64,000 bases of DNA from Neisseria leonii (GTDB lineage: Bacteria; Pseudomonadota; Gammaproteobacteria; Burkholderiales; Neisseriaceae). The stretch lies in NCBI RefSeq assembly GCF_028776105.2, contig NZ_CP145606.1, positions 1,674,001 through 1,738,000 of the forward strand. The letters run 5' to 3'. The notes beneath the pieces were generated by a model. The model ran no database searches. It had not been told where the DNA came from and saw nothing but the letters and a program-made list of their open reading frames with translations. Below are positions 24,215 to 43,273 of this stretch, one piece after another (position 1 is the stretch's first letter; every line of letters begins with the position of its first letter). Position numbers and translations under genes: made by a program.

Positions 24215-24961
24215 ATGGCAGACGTTTTCCGTTTTTCTTTCAACATTGCCGCATGGCGTGCGGTGAGCGGCAGGATGGCCGGTGAAGACCAGTGGGCGCG
24301 CTGGGCGGCCGGTGCGCTTGCGGCCTCAGATGTGCCGCCTTACCGCCCGGCTGCGGAATTTTTACCGCCGCTCAAACGGCGGCGGCTGAATTTTCTGGCC
24401 AAGCTGATGTGCGAGGCAGTGTGGCCGCTGCACGGGCAGTTTGGCGGTCTGCCCATGGTTTATGCTTCTCATGACGGGGAAATCAACCGCAGTTTCGAGT
24501 TGTGGCTGTCGCTGTGGCGGGAGCAGGCGGTGTCGCCGACATCTTTCGGTTTGTCGGTACACAATGCACTGCCCGGCCAGTGGTCGATGCTGGTAGGGGA
24601 TAAGGGCGAGCATACGGCCTTGGCGGTGGGCAGCGACGGTTTGGAAACCGCTTTGGCAGAGTGCTGTGCGCTGCTGAATGAGGGAAAGCCCCGTGTGCTG
24701 CTGGTTTTGGCCGATGAGCCGTTGGACGGCGCGTATGCGGTGGCGGCCGAGCGCGCGCCGTTTCCGTATGTGCTGGCCATGGTGTTGGAACGCGGCTGCG
24801 CTTATCAGCTGGCGTGCCTGCCGGATTCAGACGGCATCGATGCGCCTTATTGGGGTGCGCTGGATTGGATCCGCTTTATGCTGACCGGTGAACCGCAGTA
24901 TGAACGCCGTTACCGCGGCCGTGTTTGGCGGTGGTGCAAAGGTTCGGAACATCATGGATAG
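24215..24961 (+). CDS. Beta-ketoacyl synthase-like protein without the active Cys (chain-length-factor type)
   Basis: A 248-residue protein like the ketosynthase N-terminal-domain homologues (PF13723 type) that open aryl polyene clusters. The thiolase-fold core is recognisable from LSVHNALPGQWSMLVGD onward, but the nucleophile-elbow position reads HTALAVGSDG with no catalytic cysteine, and the C-terminal half of a normal ketosynthase is absent. Such proteins may pair with an active ketosynthase, much as a chain-length factor does. I chose the ATG at 24215 (MADVFRFSFN); the upstream frame is unconserved and the ribosome-binding site is weak. It overlaps the next gene by eight bases. A DUS is embedded as PDSDGID. 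Confidence 0.7.
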   Translation: MADVFRFSFNIAAWRAVSGRMAGEDQWARWAAGALAASDVPPYRPAAEFLPPLKRRRLNFLAKLMCEAVWPLHGQFGGLPMVYASHDGEINRSFELWLSLWREQAVSPTSFGLSVHNALPGQWSMLVGDKGEHTALAVGSDGLETALAECCALLNEGKPRVLLVLADEPLDGAYAVAAERAPFPYVLAMVLERGCAYQLACLPDSDGIDAPYWGALDWIRFMLTGEPQYERRYRGRVWRWCKGSEHHG

Positions 24962-25703
24962 AATCCGCCGTTTTTTGGGCACTTTGTTCGGTTTCGTGCT
25001 GTTCGGCGTGGCCGGCCTGCTGTTCAGGCTGATGCTGCTGCCTTATACGCGCCGGGCTGCGGTGCTGACGGTCGGGGAACATCTGGCGGCGCGGCGGCTG
25101 GTCGGGCGGGTATGGCGTTTTTTTGTGCGTTATCTGGAATGGTCGGGCGTGCTGTCCGTCCGTTTCCACGGTGCGGAACGCCTGGGGCGGCCGGGTCAGC
25201 TGGTTTTGAGCAACCATCCGTCGCTTCTGGATGTGGTACTGCTCATCAGCCGTGTGCCGCAGCTCAACTGTATCGTCAAAAAAGACTTGCTGGATAATCC
25301 GGTGATGAAGTCGCCGATTATTGCGGCCGGCTTTATTCCCAATACCGAGTCCGAGGCGATGCTCAATCAAGTGGATACGGTTTTGAAAGGCGGCGAGAGC
25401 CTGCTTGTTTTTCCCGAAGGAACGCGTACCGGCTGGGACGGTGTGGTCAGAATGCACCGGGGGGCGGTTTCGATGGGTCTGAGGAGTGCGGCGGTGATGA
25501 CGCCGGTGGTGATTAAAATGACACCGCCGAACTTCAAAAAAGGCCAGCCGTGGTACCGCATACCGGCGCGGAAAATCCATTATGAAATTACTGTGGGCGA
25601 GGACATCGACCCCCGGGCGTGGCTGGCGCAAAAGCCGCTGCCGATTGCCGCCCGCAGGCTGAACGACTATTTGCAACAATACTTTACGGAGAAAACGCAA
25701 TGA
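24954..25703 (+). CDS. Lysophospholipid acyltransferase-family protein
   Basis: A 249-residue PlsC-type acyltransferase. One or two N-terminal hydrophobic segments (about residues 5-30) precede the HX4D catalytic motif in LSNHPSLLDVVLL, and FPEGTR gives the acyl-acceptor binding motif near residue 160. In aryl polyene clusters this enzyme is thought to attach the polyene acid to a membrane lipid or glycerol-type acceptor. Translation is probably coupled on both sides: the start overlaps the preceding gene, and the stop overlaps the next ATG as ATGA. Its natural acceptor cannot be read from sequence. Confidence 0.85.
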   Translation: MDRIRRFLGTLFGFVLFGVAGLLFRLMLLPYTRRAAVLTVGEHLAARRLVGRVWRFFVRYLEWSGVLSVRFHGAERLGRPGQLVLSNHPSLLDVVLLISRVPQLNCIVKKDLLDNPVMKSPIIAAGFIPNTESEAMLNQVDTVLKGGESLLVFPEGTRTGWDGVVRMHRGAVSMGLRSAAVMTPVVIKMTPPNFKKGQPWYRIPARKIHYEITVGEDIDPRAWLAQKPLPIAARRLNDYLQQYFTEKTQ

Positions 25704-25963
25704 GCGATTTGAACCAGCGCATCAAGCAGATGATTATCGATTCACTGGGTTTGGAAGACATCGGCAGCGGCGATATTGCAGACGGTGCCCCGCTGTTCGG
25801 CGACGACGGCCTGGGTTTGGACTCGGTGGACGCGCTCGAACTGGGTTTGGCGGTGCAGAAGACATTCGGTATCCAGCTGGACGGCGAAAAAGAGCAGCTG
25901 CGCGACCATTTTGCCAGCGTGCAGACTTTGGCCGACTTTATCCGCAGCCGCCAAAACGCATAA
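25700..25963 (+). CDS. Acyl carrier protein 1 of the pigment cluster
   Basis: An 87-residue acidic carrier protein. GLGLDSVDALEL supplies Ser42 for the 4'-phosphopantetheine arm. The phosphopantetheinyl transferase at the end of the cluster is the likely activator. Its start overlaps the acyltransferase stop, and a second carrier gene follows 13 bases later; a tandem carrier pair is typical of aryl polyene clusters. Confidence 0.92.
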   Translation: MSDLNQRIKQMIIDSLGLEDIGSGDIADGAPLFGDDGLGLDSVDALELGLAVQKTFGIQLDGEKEQLRDHFASVQTLADFIRSRQNA

Positions 25964-25976
25964 AGGAGTAGGGCAG

Positions 25977-26222
25977 ATGACCGAACAGGAAATCCGACAA
26001 GTTTTGACCGGCGCGCTGGTCGAACTGTTTGAAATCGACCCGCAGCGCATCAGCGGCGGCACAGACCTTTATCAGGATCTGGAAATCGACAGTATTGATG
26101 CCATCGATCTGATCGACTATATCAAGCGGGAAACCGGCCGCAAATTGAAGGCAGACGATTTCCGCAACGTGCGCACGGTTGACGACATCGTTCAGGCCGT
26201 CTTAAAAATCGATGCCGCGTAA
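25977..26222 (+). CDS. Acyl carrier protein 2 of the pigment cluster
   Basis: An 81-residue carrier protein with DLEIDSIDAIDLIDYI, giving attachment Ser39. AAAGGAG lies 10 bases before the ATG. It is divergent from the first carrier and therefore probably serves a different step, such as starter loading versus chain extension. Confidence 0.92.
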   Translation: MTEQEIRQVLTGALVELFEIDPQRISGGTDLYQDLEIDSIDAIDLIDYIKRETGRKLKADDFRNVRTVDDIVQAVLKIDAA

Positions 26223-26254: not shown

Positions 26255-26791
26255 GTGCGTAATACCGGCACGCTGCTGCTGGCGGTAACGGGAGCGGCTT
26301 ACCCGATTGTCTGGTATTTCGGGCGGGAATACGGCGTTTTCCCGTGGCTGGCCGTGCTGATGTGCGGCCTGTGGCTGCTGCGAGCCGTGCAGGCGCGGGG
26401 CGTGCAGCGTCGGGTTGCCTGCTCGGCAGCAGCTTTTTTTGCCGCTGCCGTGTTTTGGGGGCGCCCCGGTTCGATGTACTGGTATCCGGTTGCCGTCAGC
26501 CTGCTGATGTTGGCGGTGTTCGGATCCAGCCTGTTTGCCGGCCGGACCGTGATCGAACGGTTGGCACGCCTCCGGTATCCCGACCTGCCGGAAAAAGGCG
26601 TGCGCCATACGCGGCGGGTAACGCAGATTTGGTGTGTGTTTTTCGTGTTTAACGCTGCGGTTGCCGCATGGCTGGCACTCAGCGGCCGCTATGACTGGTG
26701 GGCGGCCTATACCGGTGCCGTATCTTACGGCCTGATGGGGCTGCTGTTCGGCGGGGAATGGCTGTACCGGAAGGCGGTATTGAAACTGTGA
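26255..26791 (+). CDS. Cluster-associated polytopic membrane protein (COG4648-like)
   Basis: A 178-residue hydrophobic protein with about five or six membrane segments and a short charged loop (RLARLRYPDLPEKGVRHTRR, about residues 90-110). A membrane protein of this size and loop sequence regularly follows the carrier-protein pair in aryl polyene clusters; its function is unknown. The start is a GTG with GGAG six bases upstream. The stop is followed at once by a DUS hairpin, so transcription may be reduced here before the Dar genes. Confidence 0.75.
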   Translation: MRNTGTLLLAVTGAAYPIVWYFGREYGVFPWLAVLMCGLWLLRAVQARGVQRRVACSAAAFFAAAVFWGRPGSMYWYPVAVSLLMLAVFGSSLFAGRTVIERLARLRYPDLPEKGVRHTRRVTQIWCVFFVFNAAVAAWLALSGRYDWWAAYTGAVSYGLMGLLFGGEWLYRKAVLKL

Positions 26792-26835
26792 GGCCGTCTG
26801 AAACGGCTTGCCGCTGAGGCATGTTCAGACGGCCT
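26791..26835 (+). terminator. DUS hairpin inside the cluster, before darA
   Basis: AGGCCGTCTGAA and TTCAGACGGCCT are separated by about 21 bases. A TACAAT at 26843-26848 just downstream could start a second transcript. Confidence 0.5.
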
Positions 26836-26896: not shown

Positions 26897-27808
26897 GTGA
26901 AGAAAGTTTTACTGGTTTATTATTCGCAAACCGGCCAGTTGGCGGGTTTGGCGCACCGTTTTGCCGAACCGCTGCGGCAGAGCGGCAGCGTCCGTCTGGA
27001 TTGTGTCGGTTTGCGGCCGCAAAAACCGTATCCGTTTCCGTGGCCGTTTTGGCGTTTTTTCGATACCTTCCCCGAAACCGTCCATTTGCGGCCGGAGGCG
27101 CTGGCAGAACCGGAGATTCCCGACGGAGATTATGATGTGGTCGTGATTGCCTACACCGTGTGGTTTCTGTCGCCTGCCCGGCCGGTCAGTGCTTTTTTGC
27201 AGCGCGCTGAAACCCGCAGGCTGCTGCACGGCAAGCCGGTCATCACGCTGATCGGCTGCCGCAATATGTGGCTGGCCGCGCAGGAAAAAATGAAAACTTT
27301 GCTGGCGCAAAACGGCGCGCACTTAATCGGCAATATCGTTAAAACCGATGCCTGCGGCCGTGCGGCCAGTTTTATTACCACACCGGCGTGGCTGCTGACG
27401 GGCGACAGGCAGTATTTCCGCAGCCTGCCCGCCGCGGGCATCGCGCCTGAAGAAATCGCGGACGGTGCGCGTTTCGGCGCGAAACTGCGCGACGTACTGG
27501 CAGCGGGGCAGCCTTTGGACGAAACCCTTTTCCGCAGCATGGGTGCGGCCAAGGTGGACGAAAAGCTGATTTTCAGCGAACAGGCGGCCGCCCGCAGTTT
27601 TTATCTGTGGGGCAGGCTGCTGATGGCGGCGGGACGGGTGTCGCCGCTGCTGCGCCGTATCCTGCTGGCGGTTTATATCGTTTTCCTGATCGGCATGATT
27701 CTGACGGTGGTGCCGGTCAGCGCGGCAGTCAAACGTCTGCTGCGGCCGTGGCTGATCGGCTGGCTGGAAAAGCAGAAACGGTATTACGGGCAGCCTTCCG
27801 GCGAATGA
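26897..27808 (+). CDS. darA: Dialkylresorcinol condensing enzyme DarA
   Basis: A 303-residue protein with a flavodoxin-like N-terminal fold: VLLVYYSQTGQLAG is the phosphate-binding loop and YDVVVIAYTVWFLSPA follows as the second flavin-loop region. The C-terminal third has one or two hydrophobic segments (about residues 255-280), as in DarA proteins of dialkylresorcinol clusters. DarA works with DarB to form or aromatise the resorcinol ring made from two acyl chains. The immediate DarB neighbour makes the assignment firm. The start is GTG, with GAGGG upstream. Confidence 0.85.
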   Translation: MKKVLLVYYSQTGQLAGLAHRFAEPLRQSGSVRLDCVGLRPQKPYPFPWPFWRFFDTFPETVHLRPEALAEPEIPDGDYDVVVIAYTVWFLSPARPVSAFLQRAETRRLLHGKPVITLIGCRNMWLAAQEKMKTLLAQNGAHLIGNIVKTDACGRAASFITTPAWLLTGDRQYFRSLPAAGIAPEEIADGARFGAKLRDVLAAGQPLDETLFRSMGAAKVDEKLIFSEQAAARSFYLWGRLLMAAGRVSPLLRRILLAVYIVFLIGMILTVVPVSAAVKRLLRPWLIGWLEKQKRYYGQPSGE

Positions 27809-27839: not shown

Positions 27840-29009
27840 ATGAATCCACAGCACACATTGAGCGAAGTCTATATCAACCGGGCAGCTGCCTTTCTGCCCA
27901 ACCGGGCGGTGGGCAACGACGAAATGGAGGCCGTTTTGGGTTTGGCGGGCGGGCTGCCTTCGCGCGTACGCAAAATGATTCTGCGTTCCAACGCCATCGA
28001 AACGCGCCATTACGCCATCGACCCCGAAACGCGCCAAGCCACGCACAGTTGTGCCGAACTGGCGGCCGAGGCGGTCCGGCTGCTGTTTGCGCAGGGAACC
28101 GATCCGGCCGAAATCGGCAGTTTGGCCTGTGCCACGTCGTATCCCGACCAGACCATGCCCGGCCACGGCGTGATGGTGCACGGTCTGCTGCCGGAAACGG
28201 GTGCCTGCGAAGTCGTCAGTGCGGCGGGCGTGTGCGTGGCGGGTATGGCGGCGATGAAGCATGCTTATCAGGCCGTGCGCACGGGGGAACACCGGCATGC
28301 CGTGGCCGTTGCGGCCGAAGCGGCTTCCGCCGTGATGCGCGGCGAAGTGTTTCAGAGCGAAACCGACGGCCGCAAATTGGCCGGTGCCAAGCCCGAAATC
28401 GCTTTTGAAAAGGATTTCCTGCGCTGGATGCTGTCGGACGGTGCCGGTGCGGTGCATGTGAGCAGCCGCCCGAACGGTCGGGGCATCAGTCTGAAAATCC
28501 ACTGGATCGAACTGTTGTCCTATGCCCACGAGATGCCTGCCTGTATGTATGCCGGTGCCGAGATTTCAGACGGCCTGCTGCGCGGCTGGAAAACCTTCGA
28601 CAGCGATTATTGCCGCCGCAACAGCCTGATGGCGGTCAAGCAGGACGTGAAGCTGCTCAATGAAAACATTGTGCCGTACACGGTGGAAAAACCGCTGGCG
28701 CGGATTATGGCCAAACACAAACTGCGAGCGGAAGAGATCGACTGGTTCCTGCCGCACTATTCGTCGGGCTTTTTCCGCGACAAACTGGCTGTCGGGCTGT
28801 CCAATGCCGGCCTGCCCGTCGGGCAGGAAAAATGGTTTACCAACCTGGCCGCCAAGGGCAATACCGATTCGGCCTCGATTTATATTATTCTGGAAGAATT
28901 TATGCGCAGGTCCGACTTGCGGGCGGGGCAGAAAATCCTGTGCTACATTCCCGAAAGCGGGCGGTTTTCCACCTGTTTCATGCTTTTGGAAGCCGTAGAG
29001 GCCGTCTGA
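27840..29009 (+). CDS. darB: Beta-ketoacyl synthase III DarB
   Basis: A 389-residue KAS III-type enzyme that joins two fatty-acid-derived chains head to head, giving the cyclohexanedione precursor of a dialkylresorcinol. The catalytic triad is visible: Cys132 in SAAGVCVAGM, His306 in FLPHYSSG and Asn341 in KGNTDSAS. The His motif differs from the housekeeping FabH type (HQAN), as in DarB enzymes. The protein ends in EAVEAV with its stop codon supplied by a DUS, and another DUS is in frame as ISDGLLRG near residue 243. The next gene starts two bases later. Confidence 0.9.
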   Translation: MNPQHTLSEVYINRAAAFLPNRAVGNDEMEAVLGLAGGLPSRVRKMILRSNAIETRHYAIDPETRQATHSCAELAAEAVRLLFAQGTDPAEIGSLACATSYPDQTMPGHGVMVHGLLPETGACEVVSAAGVCVAGMAAMKHAYQAVRTGEHRHAVAVAAEAASAVMRGEVFQSETDGRKLAGAKPEIAFEKDFLRWMLSDGAGAVHVSSRPNGRGISLKIHWIELLSYAHEMPACMYAGAEISDGLLRGWKTFDSDYCRRNSLMAVKQDVKLLNENIVPYTVEKPLARIMAKHKLRAEEIDWFLPHYSSGFFRDKLAVGLSNAGLPVGQEKWFTNLAAKGNTDSASIYIILEEFMRRSDLRAGQKILCYIPESGRFSTCFMLLEAVEAV

Positions 29010-29011
29010 AA

Positions 29012-29425
29012 ATGGAAGTGGACGATATTCCGCAGGACAACAGCAAATCCTACCACGGGCAGCGCAAAATCATTTATGCGACACGCGGCGGGCGTTACGA
29101 AGCGGCTGCCAGCAGCGGTTGGGACGAAGAGTCTTACGCGACAGAGATGGCGGTGGACGGGCTGGCCGAACAGGCGCGTGCAGCACGGGCGGCCGTCGCC
29201 GGCGGGGCGTATTCGCCGCTGTATTACCATATGCTGCGTTTCCGCCACGACACCGGCAGCCTGGCAGCGGCGGCCGGTGTATGGAAATGGCAGCTGCGCC
29301 GCCACCTGCGTCCCGCAGTATTTGCCCGACTGCCGGAAAAAACCTTGAAAAAATATGCAGATGCGCTGCAAATCAGTGTGGACGAACTCAAAACGTCCGA
29401 TGCCGGTTTGCCCTTCGGCGGATAA
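29012..29425 (+). CDS. Small cluster protein with helix-turn-helix-like C-terminus
   Basis: A 137-residue protein directly coupled to darB, with a two-base gap. I do not recognise a named family. The C-terminal half (about residues 70-130) is helical: LAAAAGVWKWQLRRHLRPAV followed by LKKYADALQISVDELKTSD. The latter looks like the last helices of a Cro/CI-type DNA-binding domain, where the similar YADALGISVDEL occurs. It could be a cluster-linked regulator. The DNA-binding idea is inference only. The ATG lies four bases after the DUS that ends darB. Confidence 0.6.
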   Translation: MEVDDIPQDNSKSYHGQRKIIYATRGGRYEAAASSGWDEESYATEMAVDGLAEQARAARAAVAGGAYSPLYYHMLRFRHDTGSLAAAAGVWKWQLRRHLRPAVFARLPEKTLKKYADALQISVDELKTSDAGLPFGG

Positions 29426-29479: not shown

Positions 29480-30475
29480 ATGAACGATTTTCCCCACCGG
29501 CACAGCGCCCATTGCGAAAGCGGCGTGATGTCCGCACTGCTGAACCGACACGGCCATGCCGTGAACGAAGCTCTGGTCTTCGGCCTCGCGCGCGGACTGT
29601 CTTTTGTGTATATGCCGCTGATCAAACTCGGCGGTATGCCGCTGGTGTCATACCGCACCGCGCCGCGCAGCATCATCAAAAACACCTGCAAAACACTCGG
29701 GTTGAAGCTCGATATGCAGACCTTTTCCGACGAATCGGCGGGGCAGGCGGCATTGGACCGCGCTTTGGCGCAGGGGCAGCTGGTCGGTTTGCAGACATCG
29801 GTGTTCTGGCTGCCTTATTTCCCGCCCGCCATGCGTTTCCATTTCAATGCACACAACCTGCTGGTGTACGCCAGAGAGGGCGGCGACTACCTCATCAGCG
29901 ACCCGGTATTTGAAACCGTGCAGCGCTGTGCGACGGCGGATCTGCAGCGGGCGCGTTTTGCCAAAGGCGCGCTGGCGGCCAAGGGCATGATGTACACGCT
30001 GGCGGGCAACCGGCCGTCTGAAAGCGTTGCCGCCGAACTGCCTGCGCTGATCCGCACCGCCGTCCGCAAGAATGCCGCCCATATGCTCGCGCCGCTGTTT
30101 TTTGTGGGCGTGCGGGGGATGCGCACCGTGGCGGCGAAGATTGAGCAGCTGCCCCGACGGCAATCCGCCGCCTATCAGAAACAATTTCTCGGCCATCTGG
30201 TGCGTATGCAGGAAGAAATCGGTACGGGCGGGGCGGGCTTCCGCTATCTGTATGCCTATTTCCTCGAACAGGCCGCCGGATACTGCCGCGATCCGCGTTT
30301 TCAGACGGCCTCCGAAGACATGACCGCCATCGGCGACCAATGGCGGACTTTTGCCGCCATGTGCGTGAAACAGTGCAAAAAGCCGTCTGAAAACGGCTGT
30401 CAAGAGCTTGGTGCACGGTTGCGCGCCATTGCCGATCAGGAAGCCGCCCTGTGGCGGCGTTTGAAGGCCGTCTGA
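29480..30475 (+). CDS. BtrH-like acyltransferase/cysteine-protease-fold protein
   Basis: A 331-residue protein resembling the BtrH N-terminal family. HRHSAHCESGVMSALLNRHG near the start supplies Cys12, and AHNLLVYAREGGDYLISDP supplies a His and Asp in the arrangement of C39-type papain-fold proteins. In butirosin biosynthesis BtrH moves an acyl group from a carrier protein to its acceptor. By analogy this protein could pass the polyene from a carrier protein to the resorcinol, making a flexirubin-type ester. That role is inference. Three DUS copies are in frame (NRPSESV, FQTASED, KKPSENG), and a fourth supplies the stop. Confidence 0.72.
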   Translation: MNDFPHRHSAHCESGVMSALLNRHGHAVNEALVFGLARGLSFVYMPLIKLGGMPLVSYRTAPRSIIKNTCKTLGLKLDMQTFSDESAGQAALDRALAQGQLVGLQTSVFWLPYFPPAMRFHFNAHNLLVYAREGGDYLISDPVFETVQRCATADLQRARFAKGALAAKGMMYTLAGNRPSESVAAELPALIRTAVRKNAAHMLAPLFFVGVRGMRTVAAKIEQLPRRQSAAYQKQFLGHLVRMQEEIGTGGAGFRYLYAYFLEQAAGYCRDPRFQTASEDMTAIGDQWRTFAAMCVKQCKKPSENGCQELGARLRAIADQEAALWRRLKAV

Positions 30476-30479: not shown

Positions 30480-31370
30480 ATGATTGAAATCCAAGCTCTG
30501 AGCCACCGCTACCCCGCTGCCGCCGACGATGCGCTGCACGGCGTTTCGCTCGACATCGGCGCGGGCGAATGCTGGGGGCTGCTCGGCCCCAACGGTGCGG
30601 GCAAAACCACCCTGATGTCGCTGTTGGCCGGTTTGCAGGAAGTACAGCGCGGCCGGATTCTGTTCGACGGCTGCCCCATCGGCGGCCTGAGCCGCACGGC
30701 GCGGCAGAAAATCGGACTCGTGCCGCAGGATTTCGCGTTTTATCCGCAGCTGAGCGTGTGGGGCAACCTGCTGTTTTTCGCCGCACTGTATAAGATGCGC
30801 GACAAAGGCCGTCTGAACAGCCTGTTGGCGCAGGCCGGACTGACCGCTTACCGGCGCACCGCCGCCAAACACCTCTCCGGCGGCCTGAAACGCCGTCTGA
30901 ATTTCGCCATCGGCCTGATTAATGCGCCGGAGCTGCTGTTTTTGGACGAAATCACCGTCGGCATCGATCCGCAGTCGCGCCGCTTTATTCTCGACAGCGT
31001 TCAGGCACTGACCGGGCAGGGCGTAACCGTGGTGTACACCTCGCACTACCTGCCCGAAATCGAACAGCTCTGCGGCAAAATCGCCCTGCTCAACCGGGGG
31101 CGTTTGGTTTACCGGGGCAGTTTGGACGGGCTGTTGGCCGGACAGGCGCAGCGTGTGCGCTTCATCACCGATCCCGTGCTGCCGCCCGAAGTGCTGGCGG
31201 ATTTGCAGGCCGCTCCCGCAGACGGGCGCGGTATGATGGAGACCGCACGCGCGGCGGGCGAAGTGTATGCCTGTCTGCAAAACAGCGGTGCGCGTATCCG
31301 CTATTTCCAGCAGGGGCAGGCTTCGTTGGAGGCTTTCTATCTGGATTTTCTGCGCAGGGAGGCCGCATGA
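30480..31370 (+). CDS. ABC transporter ATP-binding protein
   Basis: A 296-residue ATPase with Walker A GPNGAGKTT (about residues 37-45), Q-loop LVPQDFAFYP, a variant signature LSGGLKRRL and Walker B LLFLDEITVGID. The layout is that of ABC-2/drug-type exporters, with about 80 extra C-terminal residues. It starts five bases after the BtrH-like gene, and its stop overlaps the permease start as ATGA. An ABC exporter is not part of standard aryl polyene clusters and may move the resorcinol or the finished conjugate. Confidence 0.9.
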   Translation: MIEIQALSHRYPAAADDALHGVSLDIGAGECWGLLGPNGAGKTTLMSLLAGLQEVQRGRILFDGCPIGGLSRTARQKIGLVPQDFAFYPQLSVWGNLLFFAALYKMRDKGRLNSLLAQAGLTAYRRTAAKHLSGGLKRRLNFAIGLINAPELLFLDEITVGIDPQSRRFILDSVQALTGQGVTVVYTSHYLPEIEQLCGKIALLNRGRLVYRGSLDGLLAGQAQRVRFITDPVLPPEVLADLQAAPADGRGMMETARAAGEVYACLQNSGARIRYFQQGQASLEAFYLDFLRREAA

Positions 31371-34655: not shown

Positions 34656-36998
34656 ATGACCGCCGCCCGCCGCCTGTATACGGTTTTGATGGTTTTGCTG
34701 TTGGCATTTGTGGTTTACAGCACCACGGCCGCATCAGCATGGCTGCAAACCGATTTTTCCGCCCTGCTGCCGCAGGAGGCGCGCCCCGACGTGCTGTTGC
34801 AGGCGGCAGACAATGCGGTGGCGGAACAGGCCGACGGGCAGGTCGTGCTGCTGGCGGGCAGTACCGATGCGGAACAGGCTTTTCAGACGGCCGCCGATAT
34901 TGCCGGACTGTGGCGGCAAAGCAGGGTGTTTTCCGCCGTAGACAGCACGTTTGCCCCTGACTTGGCGGCAGCGGGGGAGGAAGTCCGCCGCTTGGGTCTG
35001 GCCGTATTGCCGCCGCAGCAGCGGCAGATGCTGTTCGAGGAACCGGAGCGTTATTTCCGGGAGCGCGCCGAAGCGGCGGTCAATCCGTTCGCCGCACCTT
35101 CCGCGCTGCCGCTGTCGCAGGACTGGCTGGGTTTCGGCCGTTTTGTGTCCGACCGCGCCCGGCCGCAGAGCCGTTTGCGCTGGCATACCGACAACGGAAT
35201 GTTGTTCAGTGAAGACGGGGCGGGCAAAACGTGGGTTTGGCTGCGCGGACGGCTGCCGGCGGGCGGCAGTCATGCCGGCCTGCCGCCGCTGTTGCAGCAG
35301 AGCCGGGCGTTGGCCGCCCGCAGCGGCGTGGCGGTTCTGGCGGCGGGCGGCGCGGTGTTTGCCGCCGAATCGAAAGCGGCCGCCGAGCGTGAAAGCAGGC
35401 TGATGGGGACGGCGGGGCTGCTGTTTACGTTTGCGCTGCTGCTGTGGATATTCCGCAGTGCGCGGGTGTTTTGGCTGGCATTGCCGCTGACGGCGGGGCT
35501 GCTGGCCGGACTGGCGGCGGTTCTGCTGGTGTTCGGCAGCGTGCATATTCTGACGATTGTGATCGGTACCAGCCTGGCCGGTATGCTGGTCGATTTTCCG
35601 CTGCACTGGCTGGCTCCCTCTATATTCGGCACGGCCGCGCGCCGTGATGCGCATTCAGACGGCCTGAATTGGCAGCCCGTATCCGCCATGCGGCAGGTGC
35701 TGCCCGCTTTTGCCGTCAGCCTGCTGATTACGGCGGCGGGGTATGCGTTTTTATGGTTGACGCCCCTGCCGGTTTTGCGACAGACGGCGGTATTTTCGGG
35801 TTTCGCGCTGCTGGGCGCGTTTGGGGCGACGGTATGGTGGCTGCCGCCGCTGTTTGCCCGCTACCGTCCGGCCGGTGTGCCGTTTGCCCGGTGGTCGGCG
35901 CGGCTGTACGGTGCGGCCTTACGTCTGCAAAACCGTCTGGGCCGCACGGGCTGGCGGGTGGCCGACGCACTCTTTTTGCTGGGCGGGTTGTGGCGCAGCG
36001 ACTGGCATGACGACATCCGCCAGTGGGTGAATCTGCCGCAGCCGCTGTTGGCGGAGGCGCAGCAGGCCGGAGCGTTGGCCGGTTTCGATTTCGGCGGCCG
36101 TTATCTGGTGGTGGAAGCCGGCAGTGAAGATGCGCTGCTGCGGAAAAATGCCGAAGTCGGCCGGGCGCTGCACATACCGGCGGTACAGCAGAAACTGGCC
36201 GGTATTCAGTCGTTGGACCAATGGCTGATGCCGGTTTCCGAACAGCAGAAACTGCAAAACCGCCTGCGCGAACTGGCCAAACTGCCGGAAAGCTGGCAGC
36301 CGCTGCGCGATCTCGGCGTACCCGGCCAGACGGTGCGTCAGGCTTTGAACAGTGCCGCCGCCGCACCGGCCGTTACGCTTTCAGACGGCCTTAAACCCGC
36401 TTTGGCCGAGGCATGGCGGCCGCTGTATCTGGGCGAGCCCGAACCCGGCCGTTTTGCTTCGGTTATCCGTCTGAACGGTGTGAGCGACGCGGCTGTCGTT
36501 CAGACGGCCGTCAAGGGGATGGACGGGGTATACTGGGCCGACAAGCGCAGCCGTTTGAACAGCCTGTTCCGCGAAACCCGCAATCAGGCAGCGTGGCTGA
36601 AACTGGCTTCTTACGGCCTGGCACTCTTGCTGCTGTGGCGGCTGTTCGGCATCAGGCGCGGCAGTATGGTGCTGGCCGTACCGCTGACCGCAGCCGTTGC
36701 GACGGTGGCCGTATTGGGGTGGGCGGGCATTCCCGTCAGCCTGTTTGCCATGTTCGGCCTGCTGCTGGTGTCAGCCGTCGGTACCGATTATGCCGTGTAC
36801 GCCGCCGCATCGGGGCACAGCATTCCCGCCCGTTTCGGCGGCCTGCTGCCTGCCGCGCTGACCACCGGTTTCGCGTTCGCACTGCTCGGCCTGAGCAGCA
36901 CTCCCGCTGTCGCCGCTTTCGGCATCACCGTTGCGGCGGGTACGCTGATTAACCTGTGGCTGGCCGTTTGGCTGCTGAACAGAAGCGGTTCGGCATGA
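34656..36998 (+). CDS. MMPL/RND-family lipid exporter
   Basis: A 780-residue inner-membrane exporter with the RND layout: TM1 at about residues 8-27, a periplasmic domain to about residue 250, five membrane segments (about 255-420), a second periplasmic domain and a final five-segment block (about 640-770). The AMFGLLLVSAVGTDYAVYAA segment corresponds to the conserved TM10-type motif of MMPL proteins. Aryl polyene clusters carry such an exporter, thought to pass the pigment across the inner membrane. AAAAAAGGA precedes the ATG. It carries four in-frame DUS copies (FQTAADI, HSDGLNW, LSDGLKP, VQTAVKG). Confidence 0.88.
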   Translation: MTAARRLYTVLMVLLLAFVVYSTTAASAWLQTDFSALLPQEARPDVLLQAADNAVAEQADGQVVLLAGSTDAEQAFQTAADIAGLWRQSRVFSAVDSTFAPDLAAAGEEVRRLGLAVLPPQQRQMLFEEPERYFRERAEAAVNPFAAPSALPLSQDWLGFGRFVSDRARPQSRLRWHTDNGMLFSEDGAGKTWVWLRGRLPAGGSHAGLPPLLQQSRALAARSGVAVLAAGGAVFAAESKAAAERESRLMGTAGLLFTFALLLWIFRSARVFWLALPLTAGLLAGLAAVLLVFGSVHILTIVIGTSLAGMLVDFPLHWLAPSIFGTAARRDAHSDGLNWQPVSAMRQVLPAFAVSLLITAAGYAFLWLTPLPVLRQTAVFSGFALLGAFGATVWWLPPLFARYRPAGVPFARWSARLYGAALRLQNRLGRTGWRVADALFLLGGLWRSDWHDDIRQWVNLPQPLLAEAQQAGALAGFDFGGRYLVVEAGSEDALLRKNAEVGRALHIPAVQQKLAGIQSLDQWLMPVSEQQKLQNRLRELAKLPESWQPLRDLGVPGQTVRQALNSAAAAPAVTLSDGLKPALAEAWRPLYLGEPEPGRFASVIRLNGVSDAAVVQTAVKGMDGVYWADKRSRLNSLFRETRNQAAWLKLASYGLALLLLWRLFGIRRGSMVLAVPLTAAVATVAVLGWAGIPVSLFAMFGLLLVSAVGTDYAVYAAASGHSIPARFGGLLPAALTTGFAFALLGLSSTPAVAAFGITVAAGTLINLWLAVWLLNRSGSA

Positions 36999-37097: not shown

Positions 37098-38342
37098 ATG
37101 TCTTGTTTGCATTCGTTCGATGTGGCCGTTATCGGTGCGGGGCCGGCCGGTTCGGTGGCCGCCGCGCTGCTCAACCGGAAAGGTTTCCGGGTGTGCGTGC
37201 TGGAACAGCAGCATTTTCCGCGTTTCGTCATCGGCGAGAGCCTGCTGCCGCACTGTATGGAAATGATCGAAGAAGCGGGTTTTTTGGCTGCGGTACAGGC
37301 CGAACCGTCTTTCCAGCTGAAAAACGGCGCGGCGTTCACGTGGGGCAGCCGCTATACTTATTTTGATTTCACCGATAAGTTTTCAGACGGCCCCGGTACC
37401 ACTTTTCAGGTACGCCGTGCCGTTTTCGACAAGATTCTGATAGACGAGGCGGCCAGACAGGGTGTCGAGGTGCGTTTCGGCCACAGCGTGACCGCGTTTG
37501 AAGACAGCGGAGACGGGGCGGTACTGGGCGTGGAAACGGACGGCGGCAGTACGTACCGCCTGCATGCCCGCTTTGTATTGGATGCCAGCGGTTACGGCCG
37601 TGTCCTGCCGCGCCTGCTGGATTTGGAAACCCCGTCCGACCTGCCGCCGCGTATCGCCCATTTCACCCATATCCGGGACAATATTACCAGCCCGAAATTC
37701 GACCGCGATAAAATCCTGATTACGACACACCCGCAGCACCGCGATGTGTGGCTGTGGACGATTCCGTTCGGCGACAACCATTGTTCCATCGGCGTGGTCG
37801 GTACGCCCGACAAACTGGCGGGCGATGCCGAAACCGTGCTGAAAAAAACCGCATCGGAATGTCCGATGCTGGCCGAGGTGCTGGCGGATGCGGTGTGGGA
37901 GAACGATATTCCGTTCCGCAGCATCGGCGGCTATTCGGCCAATGTGAAAACCCTGTACGGCCGGCATTTTGCCCTGCTGGGCAATGCTTCCGAATTTCTC
38001 GACCCGGTGTTTTCTTCGGGCGTTACCATTGCCATGCATTCGGCCAAACTGGCGGCCGGCCTGCTGGCCCGGCAGCTCAGCGGCGGCGCGGCCGACTGGC
38101 AGGCCGAGTTTGCCGTGCCGCTGATGCGGGGGGTGGATACGTTCCGCACTTATGTAACGGGCTGGTATGATACCCGTTTCCAAGATGTGATTTACGCGCC
38201 CGGCCGCAGTCCCGACATCAGCCGCATGATTTCGTCGATTCTGGCGGGTTATGCGTGGGATACGGCCAACCCGTTTGTGGAAAAACACGCGCAGCGTCTG
38301 GCCGCGCTGGCGGCTCTGGTGGGCAGGCAGCAGCCGGCCTGA
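37098..38342 (+). CDS. FAD-dependent oxidoreductase with halogenase-type motifs
   Basis: A 414-residue flavoprotein. VIGAGPAGSVAA (residues 11-22) is the FAD-binding GxGxxG motif. VWLWTIP contains WxWxIP at residues 218-223, the motif that marks flavin-dependent halogenases, and Lys75 in FQLKNGAAF lies where their catalytic lysine is expected. Related enzymes in xanthomonadin and flexirubin clusters halogenate the aryl ring, so this could chlorinate or brominate the polyene head group or the resorcinol. Other members of the fold are monooxygenases or reductases, so activity is uncertain. About 100 bases separate it from the exporter, and its ribosome-binding site is weak. A DUS is in frame as FSDGPG. 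Confidence 0.8.
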   Translation: MSCLHSFDVAVIGAGPAGSVAAALLNRKGFRVCVLEQQHFPRFVIGESLLPHCMEMIEEAGFLAAVQAEPSFQLKNGAAFTWGSRYTYFDFTDKFSDGPGTTFQVRRAVFDKILIDEAARQGVEVRFGHSVTAFEDSGDGAVLGVETDGGSTYRLHARFVLDASGYGRVLPRLLDLETPSDLPPRIAHFTHIRDNITSPKFDRDKILITTHPQHRDVWLWTIPFGDNHCSIGVVGTPDKLAGDAETVLKKTASECPMLAEVLADAVWENDIPFRSIGGYSANVKTLYGRHFALLGNASEFLDPVFSSGVTIAMHSAKLAAGLLARQLSGGAADWQAEFAVPLMRGVDTFRTYVTGWYDTRFQDVIYAPGRSPDISRMISSILAGYAWDTANPFVEKHAQRLAALAALVGRQQPA

Positions 38343-38404: not shown

Positions 38405-38887
38405 ATGGGAAAACAACTGTTGCCTGCCGCCCTGTGCCTGCTGGCGGCCTGTGCCGTTCTGCCGCAGAAGCGGGAAGTGCCGCCGCTGGCGCGCAGCGGC
38501 TGGTTCCAACTGACGCAGTACCGTGGGGCAGAAACGGCCGTGCAGAGCCTGTTGGCGGTGGAACCGGGTGCGGAGGGCGTGCGTTTTGTACAGACCGATG
38601 CTTTGGGCGTGCCGCAGACACGGCAGATTTTCGGGCGGCGGGGCTGGCGCAACGACGGTTTTGTGATGCCCGATGCCGGGGCGCGCCGCCTGTTTACTGC
38701 ACTGCTGCCGCTGCTGGCGGCCGACGGTGCGGCCGTTTTTCCCCAGTGGCGGCGGCAGGCGGACGGTGCGGCTGCCTGCTATTACGACGGAGCCGTGCTG
38801 TTATGGTGCAGCCGGCCGGCCGACGGCGGCTGGCGGATTGATGCGGGGGACGGAGTCGGATGGCTGGTCCGCCCCTTGGAGGAATGA
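38405..38887 (+). CDS. DUF3261 outer-membrane lipoprotein of the cluster
   Basis: A 160-residue lipoprotein. The signal sequence ends in the lipobox LLAAC (Cys17), so it is lipid-anchored on the periplasmic side. The mature part matches the size and context of the DUF3261 proteins found before the last ketosynthase block of aryl polyene clusters. They are thought to help transfer the pigment to the outer membrane. No LolA-like carrier gene is present, which is unusual, so this may be the only visible outer-membrane component. AAGGA precedes the ATG; the stop overlaps the next ATG. Confidence 0.8.
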   Translation: MGKQLLPAALCLLAACAVLPQKREVPPLARSGWFQLTQYRGAETAVQSLLAVEPGAEGVRFVQTDALGVPQTRQIFGRRGWRNDGFVMPDAGARRLFTALLPLLAADGAAVFPQWRRQADGAAACYYDGAVLLWCSRPADGGWRIDAGDGVGWLVRPLEE

Positions 38888-40119
38888 GGTTGGAACGTCA
38901 GAATGTTTATTTGTCCGCGCCTGCATTGGTCAGCGCATTGGGCGACGGTGCGGCGCAGCACGCGGCGGCACTGTTCGACTGCCCGCCTGCACAGAGCCCG
39001 CTGGCGGTTTCCGGTCAGTGGGTGGCGGGGAAACCGTATTTTTTCGGTGCCGTAGGCGGGGCGTTGCGGGCGTTTCCGCCGTCGCTTGACGCATCGTTCC
39101 ACAGCCGGAACAACCGCCTGCTGTGGCACGCGCTGGCACAAATCGAGCCGCAGATTGAAACGGTCAGGGAGCGGTTCGGCAGCCACCGTGTCGCGGTTGT
39201 GATGGGCACTTCGACCAGCGGTGCCGATGAAAATGCCGACTTGTTCCGCCATGCTGCCGCAGGCGGCGCATGGCACGGGAAGCCGTTCCACTACCGCCAG
39301 CAGCTGATGGCCGCGCCGGCGGAGTTTGTGGCGGAGGTGTATGGTTTGAGCGGCCTGCGCTATACCGTATCCACGGCCTGCACGTCCGGTGCGCGCGCCC
39401 TGATCAGTGCCGCCCGCCTGCTGCGTGCGGGATTGTGCGATGCGGTGGTGTGCGGCGGGGCGGATACGCTGTCTTATCTGACGATTAACGGTTTTGCCGC
39501 ACTCGAAGTGTTGTCGCCCGACTTGGCGCGGCCGTTTGACCGCCGCCGCAACGGCATCAATATCGGCGAAGCGGCCGCAGCGTTTGTGATGACGCGCGAG
39601 GCCCTGTTTTCAGACGGCCTGCCGCTGCTGGGGTGCGGTGCGAGCAGTGATGCCTACCATATGTCTTCGCCGCACCCGGAAGGCGAGGGGGCGGCCGCCG
39701 CATTTGAAGCGGCATTGGCCGGTGCGGGTTTGGCGGCCGGTGCTGTCGGCTGGATTAATCTGCACGGTACCGGAACGCTGCAAAACGATGCCATGGAAAG
39801 TCTGGCCGTCCACCGCGTTTTCGGCAGCGGGGTCTGCTGCACGTCCACCAAGCCGCTGACCGGACACACATTGGGCGCGGCCGGTGCATTGGAGGCTGCC
39901 TTGTTGTGGCTGGCGGTCAGCCGCCGCTTCAATCCGCAAGGCCGTCTGCCGCCGCAGTTCGGTACTGTCGATTACGATGCGGCACTGCCGCCTGTCCGGC
40001 TGACCGACGGGGACAGCCGTTGGCCGGACGGCCGCCGTATCGGTGCGAGTGCCTCGTTTGCCTTCGGCGGCAGCAATGCGGTGTTGGTCATCGGCGAAAA
40101 CGCGGACGGAGGACAGTGA
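38884..40119 (+). CDS. Beta-ketoacyl-ACP synthase of the polyene cluster (ApeO-like)
   Basis: A 411-residue ketosynthase with Cys166 in VSTACTSGAR, His294 in INLHGTGTL and His328 in KPLTGHTLGAAGALE, so it should be active in chain elongation. It begins the four-gene run ketosynthase, dehydratase, ketoreductase, ketosynthase that ends aryl polyene clusters (the ApeO-P-Q-R order). The start at 38884 overlaps the lipoprotein stop as ATGA, and the stop overlaps the dehydratase ATG by one base. A reversed DUS is in frame as LFSDGLPLL near residue 243. Confidence 0.88.
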   Translation: MRLERQNVYLSAPALVSALGDGAAQHAAALFDCPPAQSPLAVSGQWVAGKPYFFGAVGGALRAFPPSLDASFHSRNNRLLWHALAQIEPQIETVRERFGSHRVAVVMGTSTSGADENADLFRHAAAGGAWHGKPFHYRQQLMAAPAEFVAEVYGLSGLRYTVSTACTSGARALISAARLLRAGLCDAVVCGGADTLSYLTINGFAALEVLSPDLARPFDRRRNGINIGEAAAAFVMTREALFSDGLPLLGCGASSDAYHMSSPHPEGEGAAAAFEAALAGAGLAAGAVGWINLHGTGTLQNDAMESLAVHRVFGSGVCCTSTKPLTGHTLGAAGALEAALLWLAVSRRFNPQGRLPPQFGTVDYDAALPPVRLTDGDSRWPDGRRIGASASFAFGGSNAVLVIGENADGGQ

Positions 40120-40631
40120 TGACAGAGTGCAACAAGAAGCCGGTCTGCCCCATCGAAACGGTGGCACCGCTGCTGCCGCACAGCGGCCGCATGGTACTGC
40201 TGGACAGAATTACGGCTTACGGCGATGACTTTCTGGAAGCGGAGGCCGAAATCCGGCCGGACCATATCCTGTTGGAACAGGGGGTTCTGCCCTGCCTGTC
40301 GGGCGCGGAAATTATGGCGCAGGGCATTGCGGCGCTGGCGGGCTGCCGGGCCGTCAATGCGGGGGAACCCGTACGCCTGGGTTTTTTGCTGGGCAGCCGG
40401 AAACTCAATGTTTTTGCCGACGTGCTGCCGGTGGGCAGCCGTCTGAAAATCGAAGTGCGCGCTTCCACGCAGGACGGCAGCGGTTTCGGCGTGTTCGACT
40501 GCCGCCTGCTGTGCGTTTCTGTTCCGCCGTCGTGGACGGGCAGGCTGCCGCCGGACGGCGTGGTGTTGGCGGCCGCGCTGAATGTTTACAGCCCGAAGGC
40601 AGATTCAGACGGCCTGTCCGGCGGGCAGTGA
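40119..40631 (+). CDS. 3-hydroxyacyl-ACP dehydratase of the polyene cluster (ApeP-like)
   Basis: A 170-residue hotdog-fold protein. LLPHSGRMVLLDRITAYG at the start is the family entry motif of this dehydratase group. The classical FabZ HFPG motif is not visible; the region reads LEQGVLPCLSGAEIMAQG, with the central helix conserved. It should introduce double bases of unsaturation into the growing polyene by removing water, perhaps together with a second subunit. It is translationally coupled to the ketosynthase (TGATG). The last ten residues come from a DUS-containing stretch (SDGLSGGQ). Confidence 0.8.
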   Translation: MTECNKKPVCPIETVAPLLPHSGRMVLLDRITAYGDDFLEAEAEIRPDHILLEQGVLPCLSGAEIMAQGIAALAGCRAVNAGEPVRLGFLLGSRKLNVFADVLPVGSRLKIEVRASTQDGSGFGVFDCRLLCVSVPPSWTGRLPPDGVVLAAALNVYSPKADSDGLSGGQ

Positions 40632-40669: not shown

Positions 40670-41398
40670 ATGCAGAAAACGGTTTTGATTACCGGATCGA
40701 GCCGGGGCATCGGCAAGGCGGTGGCATTGGATTTGGCCGCCGCAGGCTACGATATTGCGGTTCATTGCCGCAGCCGCCGTGAAGAGGCGGAGGCCGTGGC
40801 CGCTGCCGTGCGCAGTATGGGGCGTGCCGCACGGGTGCTGCAATTCGATATTGCCGACAGGGAAGCCTGCCGCCGCGTACTGACGGCCGATATGGACGCT
40901 TACGGCGCGTATTACGGAGTGGTGCTGAATGCGGGGCTGACCCGCGACAATGCTTTCCCTGCTTTTGAAGACGACGATTGGGATCAGGTCATCCGTACCA
41001 ATCTGGACGGATTTTACAATGTGCTGCACCCTGTTGTGATGCCGATGATCCGCCGCCGCCAAAGCGGGCGGATTGTGTGCATGGCATCGGTGTCCGGGCT
41101 GACCGGCAACCGCGGGCAGGTCAATTACAGCGCGTCCAAGGCCGGTGTCATCGGTGCGGCCAAAGCACTGGCGGTCGAGCTGGCCAAGCGCAAGATTACC
41201 GTCAACTGCGTCGCCCCCGGACTGATTGACACCGATATTGTCGATGAACATGTGCCGGTGGAAGAAATCCTGAAAGCCGTGCCGGTGCAGCGTATGGGGC
41301 GGCCGGAAGAAGTGGCGCATGCGGTACGCTTTCTGATGGACGAGCGGGCCGCCTACATCACGCGGCAGGTGATTGCGGTAAACGGAGGTTTGTGTTGA
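40670..41398 (+). CDS. 3-oxoacyl-ACP reductase of the polyene cluster (FabG/ApeQ-like)
   Basis: A 242-residue short-chain dehydrogenase. LITGSSRGIGKA (residues 6-17) is the NADPH-binding motif; Ser140, Tyr153 (VNYSASKAG) and Lys157 form the catalytic triad. It reduces the beta-keto group in each polyene elongation cycle. AAAAAAGGA lies six bases before the ATG. The stop codon overlaps the next start. Size and motifs match housekeeping FabG; its location in the run assigns it to pigment synthesis. Confidence 0.9.
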   Translation: MQKTVLITGSSRGIGKAVALDLAAAGYDIAVHCRSRREEAEAVAAAVRSMGRAARVLQFDIADREACRRVLTADMDAYGAYYGVVLNAGLTRDNAFPAFEDDDWDQVIRTNLDGFYNVLHPVVMPMIRRRQSGRIVCMASVSGLTGNRGQVNYSASKAGVIGAAKALAVELAKRKITVNCVAPGLIDTDIVDEHVPVEEILKAVPVQRMGRPEEVAHAVRFLMDERAAYITRQVIAVNGGLC

Positions 41399-42624
41399 GA
41401 CGGGTCGTCATAACGGGAGTCGGAGCCGTGAGCGCGTTCGGCCGCAGCTGGGCAGACATTCAGGCCTGCTTCCGGCGGGGGCGGAATGCCGTGCAGTATA
41501 TGGATTGGGCGGATCGGTTTCCCGATCTGGAAGCGCGGCTGGGCGCGCCCGTTGCCGGTTACCGGCCGCCCGAACATTGGACGCGCAAACAGCTGCGCAG
41601 CATGGGGCGCGGCGCACAGATGACGGTCGATGCGGCCGAGCAGGCGTTGGCCGATGCCGGACTGCTGGGCGACGGGCGGATTCGGGACGGCCGCATGGGC
41701 GTGGCGGCGGGGTCATCGACCGGCAGCACCAAAGATGTCGGCACGCTGGGCGATTTGGTGCTGCACGGCAATACGCGCAATTTCAATGCCAACACCTATG
41801 TGCGCATGATGCCGCATACGGTGGCGGCCAATATCGGTATTTTTTTCGGCCTGACCGGCCGCATCATTCCGACTTCCAGTGCCTGCTCTTCCGGCAGTCA
41901 GGGCATCGGCTATGCTTATGAAGCCGTGAAATACGGTTTGATAGACAGTATGCTGGCCGGCGGCGGCGAAGAGTTCTGCCCGTCCGAAGTGTATGTGTTC
42001 GACAGTCTGTATGCGGCCAGCCGCCGCAATGCAGAACCGCAGCATACGCCCCGCCCTTACGATGTGCGGCGCGACGGCTTGGTCATCGGCGAGGGCGCGT
42101 GTATGCTGGTGCTGGAATCATTGGAACACGCACAGGCGCGAGGTGCGGACATTTATGCGGAGATTGTCGGCTACGGTGCCAACAGCGACGGCAGCCACAT
42201 TACCCAGCCGCAGCAGCACACCATGCGCCGCTGTATGGAACTGGCTTTGGAAGATGCCGGACTGCGCCCCGATCAGATCGGCTATGTGAACGGACACGGT
42301 ACGGCCACCGAAAAAGGCGATATTGCCGAAACGCAGGCAACAGCGGATTTGTTCGGCTTTGTACCGATGAGTTCGCAGAAAAGCTATCTGGGGCATACGC
42401 TGGGCGCCTGCGGTGCGCTGGAATCCTGGTTTTCGGTCGAAATGATGCGCAGCGGCTGGTTTGCTCCCACGCTCAATTTGGACGAACCCGATCCGCGCTG
42501 CGGCGGAGTCGATTATATCTGCGGCGAAGGCCGTCATCTGACCGCCGATTATGTGATGAACAATAATTTCGCATTCGGCGGTGTCAATACCTCTCTGATT
42601 TTCAAACGCTGGACGGGGGTATAG
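41395..42624 (+). CDS. Beta-ketoacyl-ACP synthase of the polyene cluster (ApeR-like)
   Basis: A 409-residue KAS II-type enzyme with Cys164 in PTSSACSSGSQG, His301 in NGHGTATEKGD and His334 in YLGHTLGACGALE, complete for condensation. I placed the start at the TTG at 41395, giving MRRVVITGVG, because GGAGG sits six bases upstream and the TTGA overlaps the reductase stop. A GTG three bases earlier is the alternative. This is the last polyene synthase gene, probably the starter or general elongation ketosynthase. The phosphopantetheinyl transferase follows one base after the stop. Confidence 0.88.
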   Translation: MRRVVITGVGAVSAFGRSWADIQACFRRGRNAVQYMDWADRFPDLEARLGAPVAGYRPPEHWTRKQLRSMGRGAQMTVDAAEQALADAGLLGDGRIRDGRMGVAAGSSTGSTKDVGTLGDLVLHGNTRNFNANTYVRMMPHTVAANIGIFFGLTGRIIPTSSACSSGSQGIGYAYEAVKYGLIDSMLAGGGEEFCPSEVYVFDSLYAASRRNAEPQHTPRPYDVRRDGLVIGEGACMLVLESLEHAQARGADIYAEIVGYGANSDGSHITQPQQHTMRRCMELALEDAGLRPDQIGYVNGHGTATEKGDIAETQATADLFGFVPMSSQKSYLGHTLGACGALESWFSVEMMRSGWFAPTLNLDEPDPRCGGVDYICGEGRHLTADYVMNNNFAFGGVNTSLIFKRWTGV

Positions 42625-42625
42625 T

Positions 42626-43273
42626 TTGGACGGTGCGGCGATCGCGGGCGGCGGGGCGGAACATAAGGGCGCGGTATGCCGGCTGGCCGGTCCTGATTGG
42701 GCGGTACATTATGATGCGGCACGGTTGCGGCCGCAGGACCGTGCCAGGCTGCTGCGTGCGCCGCAGCTGGCCGGGCGTGCCGACTGGCGGGTCAGCCGTG
42801 CCTTGCTCGACGGGGCGGACAACCCCGCTTCCCTGTCGCACAGTTGCGGCTATGCCGCTGTTTTGGACGCGCCTTTTTCAGGCGGCATCGATATTGAATA
42901 CCGCCGCCCGCGCGACTTTGCCGCTTTGCTCGAATGGGTAGGGAGTGAGTGGGAGCGGGATTGGTGGCGGCAGAGCCGTCGGCCCGCGCATGATTTTTAC
43001 CGCTTGTGGACGGTAAAGGAAGCATTGCTCAAAGCTGTGGGCGGTGAATTTCCGGCCGATATGCCCGAGGTCGGAATCGGTACGGGGGCGGACGGGGGCA
43101 TTCATTTGCGCGCGCCGTCCGGCCGGTGGCACGGGGCAACGGCCGAGATCGGGATATGCAGCGTCAGTGCTGTGTGGGCGGCAGACGGGCAGCCGCCCGT
43201 GTGGCGGCGGTTCGGCAGTCTGGCCGCCCTGCCTTGCCGTCTGACCGAATATCGGGCACCGCAGGCCGTCTGA
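42626..43273 (+). CDS. 4'-phosphopantetheinyl transferase
   Basis: A 215-residue Sfp-type enzyme that would convert the three cluster carrier proteins to holo form. Family motifs are SLSHSCGYAAVL (residues 69-80), GIDIEYRRPRDF with the metal-binding Asp and Glu, and FYRLWTVKEALLKAVG, the W-x-x-K-E-A signature. The start is a TTG just one base after the ketosynthase stop; no ATG fits. The C-terminus ends APQAV, with the stop codon provided by a DUS. It closes the cluster. A repeat array follows. Confidence 0.85.
   Translation: MDGAAIAGGGAEHKGAVCRLAGPDWAVHYDAARLRPQDRARLLRAPQLAGRADWRVSRALLDGADNPASLSHSCGYAAVLDAPFSGGIDIEYRRPRDFAALLEWVGSEWERDWWRQSRRPAHDFYRLWTVKEALLKAVGGEFPADMPEVGIGTGADGGIHLRAPSGRWHGATAEIGICSVSAVWAADGQPPVWRRFGSLAALPCRLTEYRAPQAV

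Follow-up and report, generated by a model that had tools for sequence, protein, structure and literature searches.

The closest described relative of the gene cluster analyzed here is the arcuflavin system of Azoarcus sp. BH72, for which the sections of the 2014 paper used here (PMC3949708) report that two polyene genes are needed for the pigment, that its mass fragments correspond to a polyene and a dialkylresorcinol, that the authors infer an ester bond, and that the colour is unshifted by alkali. Table 1 of that paper gives the Azoarcus dar operon as darA, darB, darD, darE (BtrH-like), darF (ATP-binding cassette [ABC] ATPase), darG and darH (antitoxin-like and PilT), darI (permease), darC (carrier), darJ (ketosynthase), and darK, with darE listed as a BtrH-like peptidase and no enzyme given in those sections for the linking step; the paper also counts 9 genomes in which dar genes lie inside or beside the polyene genes. 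We analyzed a window of 64,000 nucleotides from Neisseria leonii, positions 1674001-1738000 of a host genome of 2,206,085 bases in one contig, and within it the stretch 24215-43273, which a preliminary description had read as fused aryl polyene and dialkylresorcinol pathways with a flexirubin-like product. We identified this stretch as probably an arcuflavin-type aryl polyene-dialkylresorcinol cluster that makes an ester pigment by way of DarE, its BtrH-like protein.

Gene content and comparison with described clusters

The stretch carries 22 genes, all on the plus strand, in the family order apeC-D-E-F-G, darA-B-D-E-F-I-C-J-K, apeM, a flavin adenine dinucleotide (FAD) enzyme, a lipoprotein, apeO-P-Q-R, and a phosphopantetheinyl transferase (Table 1). 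The gene-order comparison with Azoarcus that the preliminary description had proposed came out in agreement: darA and darB are followed by the darD-K set in the published order, by family and annotation rather than by aligned Azoarcus proteins and with DarA placed by synteny, and the polyene genes are of the same type. The 2 systems differ in that Azoarcus has the toxin-antitoxin-like pair G/H between darF and darI, which the window block lacks, and in that arc and dar are separate loci in Azoarcus, whereas in the window dar is embedded in the polyene operon and apeH-L are found elsewhere; Azoarcus also has a XanB2 chorismatase (PMC3949708, same sections). Because the order is that of the Azoarcus dar operon bar this one pair, the cluster is, on its sequence, best filed as a further example of the already known arcuflavin-type polyene-dialkylresorcinol kind rather than as a flexirubin cluster. 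The polyene-resorcinol hybrid of the preliminary description thus stays the best reading of the product, with arcuflavin as the closest known compound and the likeness to the flexirubins of Bacteroidetes lying at the level of the shared product class.

Compared with apeA-R of Escherichia coli CFT073, as given in the portion of PMC8253772 used here, apeC-G and apeM, O-R stand in the same order, and the window adds the FAD enzyme, the phosphopantetheinyl transferase, and the dar block. With the CFT073 proteins ApeA-R as tblastn queries (E<=1e-3), ApeA, B, H, I, J, K, L, N, and P had no match in the window; of these, apeP was recovered by Pfam, and apeJ corresponds here to 2 genes at a second locus that also holds the rest of apeH-L. 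The polyene gene set is thus spread over the window (apeC-G, M, O-R) and the second locus, with apeN doubtful, and "standard" polyene machinery, as the preliminary description put it, was an overstatement for the window.

Most parts named in the preliminary description lie where it had put them: the carrier pair apeE/apeF, the ketosynthase-dehydratase-ketoreductase-ketosynthase tail (apeO-P-Q-R), the MMPL exporter, the phosphopantetheinyl transferase, DarB, the BtrH-like protein, the ABC exporter (ATPase and ABC-2 permease), and the third carrier protein, darC. DarB belongs to the StlD/DarB ketosynthases by the broader NCBIfam model and scores below the cut-off of the narrower DarB model. The serine (DS) motif is present in all 3 carriers, the Cys-His-His motifs expected of a functional ketosynthase occur in DarJ, and the DarB motifs are also in place. 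The proposed ketosynthase pair stood for darJ and, as a distant relationship only, for its partner darK: pairwise BLAST of darK against apeC gave E 0.46, a result superseded by a profile-profile comparison (Table 1; L013, L028, and L047 excluded from the apeC profile), and a Protein Data Bank (PDB) search with the darK sequence gave nothing under E 0.38. Since DarK is a distant ApeC relative, DarJ and DarK look like a second ketosynthase-chain length factor pair. DarA owes its name to its position, to synteny, and to a weak match with flavodoxin; it has no NCBIfam match. Two labels fell away. The helix-turn-helix proposed for the small protein darD was rejected, as 29012-29425 gave no helix-turn-helix match and no credible Pfam match, although the frame itself is real and was matched in every locus from L002 to L033 except L017. 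The lipoprotein carries a lipobox and occupies the position of apeN, but no DUF3261 was recognized by Pfam at E<=1, and its profile (10 rows) aligned with E. coli ApeN over the signal peptide alone (probability 8), so that it is not recognizably ApeN.

The apeH-L genes at a second locus

The ApeH and ApeJ queries match a single place ~96 kb upstream of the window cluster, where ApeH, ApeI, a glycosyltransferase and an acyltransferase (the 2 halves of E. coli ApeJ), ApeK, and ApeL are encoded on the minus strand beside polA-like and lysA-like genes (named by eye). A frameshifted ApeJ was considered and rejected, the halves being 2 separate genes with the stop of one adjoining the start of the other. 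Neisseria dentiae (L002) and a second Neisseria (L003) share the gene order apeG, H, I, J1, J2, K, L, darA to darK, and apeM. H-L are likewise flanked by G and darA in L009 and G014, but these 2 have apeM directed behind darE and darF at a separate position. Because these 4 keep H-L in that slot, the window arrangement is, on synteny, a rearranged form in which apeH-L left the apeG-darA gap. The former slot now holds an inverted pair of cores of the neisserial uptake sequence, a motif whose AG form accounts for 66 of the 91 core copies in the window.

The empty slot, filled in N. dentiae, is what a decaying cluster would show if the displacement of apeH-L had left the pathway no longer working. 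This is very improbable, as apeH-L remain together with open frames elsewhere in the genome, all 22 frames of the window cluster are open, 8 of 21 junctions overlap (by 1-19 bases), no gap exceeds 105 bases, and the expected motifs occur in the carriers, in DarJ, and in DarB. A site scan gave 7 promoter-like sites (4.8 expected) and 39 terminator-like sites (26.6 expected), which were not used as evidence.

DarE as the candidate linking enzyme

An arcuflavin-type cluster needs a step that joins the polyene to the resorcinol, and the analysis names DarE as its candidate. DarE exceeds the cut-off of the NCBIfam family DarH_acyl (NF053550), a model whose name already says acyltransferase. We identified 80 further DarE loci, the best 80 of 397, by exact peptide patterns inside DarE, and residues C12, H125, and D141 are conserved in the alignment (45 rows of the 81 made up by the window and these loci, L028 being excluded for a stop), although conservation within the pattern stretches is partly built in because the loci were found by those patterns. 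Seven loci found by hidden Markov model (L091-L097) offer a cleaner conservation test. In 3 far homologues, the Cys and His are kept in all, and the Asp aligns in 1. A PDB sequence search with DarE gave no match at E<=10. Modelling gives DarE, over its full length, the fold of CtaG, AziU2-U3, and CcbD, at 9-19% identity in the rows compared; the Cys and His are shared with these proteins, and in the model the His-Asp spacing is that of CtaG. A full-length fold and a conserved Cys-His-Asp place DarE among the BtrH/CtaG/CcbD thiol acyltransferases, and the modelled fold and His-Asp spacing support DarE as the enzyme moving the polyene acyl group from a carrier onto the resorcinol.

Two DarE frames have an internal stop, G076:C27:34-1001, in a genome with an open DarB, and L028:10001-10990, with no DarB seen; these stops point to a possible loss of the linker in G076 and L028.

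Distribution and conservation

L002 and L003 repeat the gene order of the window cluster, and many other loci repeat parts of it, so the cluster is more than a chance assembly. Among 83 genomes of the family, counted without regard to relatedness, DarE (NF053550) and DarB (NF005293) were each above cut-off in 32, and ApeR (NF006587) was above cut-off in 54. With fragments counted, 33 genomes had both DarB and DarE, 1 had DarE alone (the poor genome G060), and none had DarB alone. ApeR was found in 32 of the 33 hybrid genomes, the exception (G038) being 68% complete, and DarB and ApeR lay <=15 kb apart in 8 of 32, otherwise further apart or on other contigs. The hybrid trait is common in the family and not peculiar to this genome. 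In a class sample of 281 genomes, DarE was identified in 15, ApeR in 25, and both in 10 (Fisher 1e-8); 3 of the 5 with DarE and no ApeR had other polyene-type genes beside darE. Further, 43 of the 80 DarE loci had at least 2 polyene genes (E and O left out) within the stretch fetched. In the portions of earlier surveys used here, PMC8549736 reports aryl polyene regions in oral Neisseria, PMC6469967 reports resorcinol as well as aryl polyene regions, and PMC11316581 lists one region of each type for N. leonii. A polyene-resorcinol hybrid product in Neisseria was not described in the titles, abstract openings, and passages covered by the literature searches, a scope that did not extend to Table S7 of PMC3949708, which possibly lists Neisseria. 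The finding also suggests the presence, in many Neisseria and Pasteurellaceae, of an envelope pigment with a chemistry not described in the literature covered here.

The genome counts bear on a reading in which one operon makes 2 independent products, an E. coli-like polyene lipid and a free dialkylresorcinol that leaves the cell through DarF/DarI, with DarE acylating something else or only trimming a carrier-bound chain. DarB and DarE are both absent from 22 of the 54 ApeR genomes of the family, so polyenes can do without them; the dar block has its own ABC exporter; the genome retains ApeD, J, K, L, and M of the E. coli pathway to a lipid-anchored polyene; and L017 has darE to darK with no darA or darB in the stretch read. 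We nevertheless consider 2 separate products unlikely, as DarB was not found without DarE in the family (33 of 33, fragments counted, 1 DarE broken), whereas for DarB relatives on plasmids of Prevotella, Bacteroides, and Pseudoalteromonas the gene tables, which are incomplete, annotate no BtrH-like protein within 6 kb, and the hybrid is produced by Azoarcus, which has this dar set, free resorcinol being undetectable according to the sections used of PMC3949708.

The nearest relatives of the window DarE and DarB are those of N. dentiae and another Neisseria, which together with the AG-form uptake-sequence cores places the source in or near Neisseria. DarB falls with the DarB of other darE-bearing loci; a grouping with unrelated enzymes, which would have counted against the preliminary description, was not seen. 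In a DarB tree of chosen rows (33, and 35 in a second tree; a complete DarB was lacking in L017, L020, and L034), the window, N. dentiae, and L003 group together (99/96) inside a clade of Neisseriaceae, Pasteurellaceae, and 1 Cardiobacteriaceae row (98/98), plus a record labelled Pseudomonas stutzeri. In the second tree, G025, of the window's own genus, joins a 15-row Pasteurellaceae group that includes the P. stutzeri-labelled record (100/99), and a tree holding the 13 Neisseriaceae rows together was rejected (p-AU 0.0135), the grouping having been picked after the first tree. This placement and rejection hint at transfer between Neisseriaceae and Pasteurellaceae. With about equal weight for and against, DarE may be the missing linker of arcuflavin-type and perhaps flexirubin-type pigments, a carrier-dependent Cys acyltransferase forming a phenol ester on an amide-making fold, and the hybrid operon a mucosal trait passed between the 2 families.

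In Pasteurellaceae loci L012-L032, the dar block often adjoins apeR-O or apeC-H in varying orientation, a variation that suggests repeated formation or break-up of the dar-ape fusion. L017 is Aggregatibacter kilianii PN_491. The P. stutzeri record (L022, NCTC11607) may be wrong in its label or its assembly, because its DarB clusters with those of Rodentibacter and Aggregatibacter.

Starter and proposed pathway

Flexirubin needs a tyrosine lyase starter. A search of the genome for PF00221 gave no tyrosine ammonia lyase gene; the only matches were 2 pieces in 2 frames (L090 8801-10259; G000:C1:1963800-1965258), one gene away from an intact urocanase gene. Because it is split and near urocanase, this lyase is likely a broken histidase, and it was rejected as a starter enzyme. 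A strict flexirubin pathway, with a tyrosine lyase starter, a coumaroyl-type head, and a Bacteroidetes-like cluster, shares the product class, and ApeL reaches 57 bits against the NCBI flexirubin LolA2 model (cut-off 125) and ApeH has 4-coumarate-CoA ligase as its best NCBIfam match (84 bits, cut-off 335). We give this pathway almost no credence, as the sole aromatic lyase is the one just described, and DarB groups with proteobacterial darE loci, a long branch separating the 2 Bacteroidetes rows, neither of which belongs to a demonstrated flexirubin cluster.

In the arcuflavin-type pathway that we favour, ApeH would load an aryl acid onto a carrier, and ApeO/ApeC, ApeQ, ApeP, ApeI, and ApeR would extend this starter to a polyenoyl-carrier. 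DarC and DarJ/DarK, with fatty-acid intermediates, would in parallel supply DarB and DarA, which would build and aromatize the dialkylresorcinol. DarE would then take the polyenoyl group from its carrier onto Cys12 and pass it to a resorcinol hydroxyl, and ApeM, the lipoprotein, and ApeL, perhaps with the DarF/DarI exporter, would bring the ester pigment to the envelope.

Several points weigh against this pathway. Solved DarE relatives make amides or other bonds and are not known to form phenol esters, and the equivalence of DarE and CtaG residues was drawn from spacing, with no printed superposition. UbiC was not found in the genome in a search whose control was positive in E. coli, a XanB2-like chorismatase gave no PF21168 match in the genome with the control also silent, and the ApeB methyltransferase gave no match in the genome in a search without a control. 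For G137 and G183, 2 DarE genomes of the class sample, the 20 and 12 kb that were read are free of polyene genes; 5 of the 80 DarE loci have no darB match (3 of these near a contig end); and the 10 kb upstream of darE in L017 and in L028 (Bibersteinia) hold no darA or darB. The genome counts disregard relatedness. As ApeD, ApeJ, ApeK, and ApeL are kept, part of the polyene may go to a lipid anchor, by analogy with the proposal for E. coli. The genes, their order, the second locus, the co-occurrence, the DarE residues, and the modelled fold are what was observed; every reaction, the product, and its export are deduced.

Table 1. Features of the N. leonii polyene-dialkylresorcinol cluster, in window positions
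Feature	Position	Strand	Evidence
apeC-like chain-length-factor partner (Ketoacyl-synt_2)	24215..24961	+	PF13723 E 7e-57; ApeC tblastn E 3e-22; PDB 6qsp_B E 4.5e-21
apeD-like acyltransferase	24954..25703	+	PF01553 E 1e-15; ApeD E 3e-34
apeE carrier protein	25700..25963	+	NF006617 73.4 bits (cut-off 70); ApeE 55%; DS motif
apeF carrier protein	25977..26222	+	NF003757 102 bits (cut-off 65); ApeF 51%; DS motif
apeG-like membrane protein	26255..26791	+	ApeG 41%, E 5e-36
Inverted pair of presumed uptake-sequence cores, apeG-darA gap (apeH-L slot in N. dentiae)	26793..26833	.	Sequence motif; synteny
darA, aromatase by name, flavodoxin-like N terminus	26897..27808	+	Synteny; weak flavodoxin match; named by analogy to Azoarcus darA
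darB ketosynthase/cyclase	27840..29009	+	NF005293 556 bits (cut-off 450); NF053539 450 bits (cut-off 550); StlD structure 5gk0 E 8e-121
darD, small conserved protein	29012..29425	+	Frame kept in 31/32 loci; no credible Pfam match
darE (NCBIfam name DarH), BtrH-like thiol acyltransferase, proposed polyene-resorcinol linker	29480..30475	+	NF053550 476 bits (cut-off 300); PF14399
darF, ABC transporter ATPase	30480..31370	+	PF00005 E 4e-30
darI, ABC-2 permease	31367..32617	+	PF12698 E 1e-21
darC carrier protein	32694..32975	+	PF00550 E 4e-5; DS motif
darJ ketosynthase	32972..33997	+	PF02801 E 8e-14; ApeO tblastn E 2e-18; Cys-His-His motifs
darK, distant apeC relative, likely darJ partner	33979..34641	+	Profile-profile with ApeC: probability 95.5, E 1.5e-8
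apeM-like RND/MMPL exporter	34656..36998	+	E. coli ApeM 28% identity, E 1e-40; no Pfam match; start picked by ribosome-binding site
FAD-dependent oxidoreductase/halogenase-like	37098..38342	+	PF04820 E 4e-24
Lipoprotein at apeN place, DUF3261 not recognized	38405..38887	+	Lipobox
apeO ketosynthase	38884..40119	+	NF006618 440 bits (cut-off 407)
apeP dehydratase	40119..40631	+	PF22817 E 2e-14
apeQ ketoreductase	40670..41398	+	PF00106 E 4e-52; ApeQ 56%
apeR ketosynthase	41392..42624	+	NF006587 689 bits (cut-off 470)
4'-Phosphopantetheinyl transferase	42626..43273	+	PF01648 E 3e-12

Other features of the window

Outside the cluster, an NgoBV-type restriction endonuclease (467 bits) and a C5 cytosine methylase were identified at 17907-20129 on the minus strand, in a low-GC islet (39% for 18001-20000). 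A second low-GC islet, at 45352-48024 on the plus strand, has 3 membrane-protein-like open reading frames of no clear Pfam family, the first 2 of which, judged by eye, end in a common C-terminal tail and resemble tandem copies.

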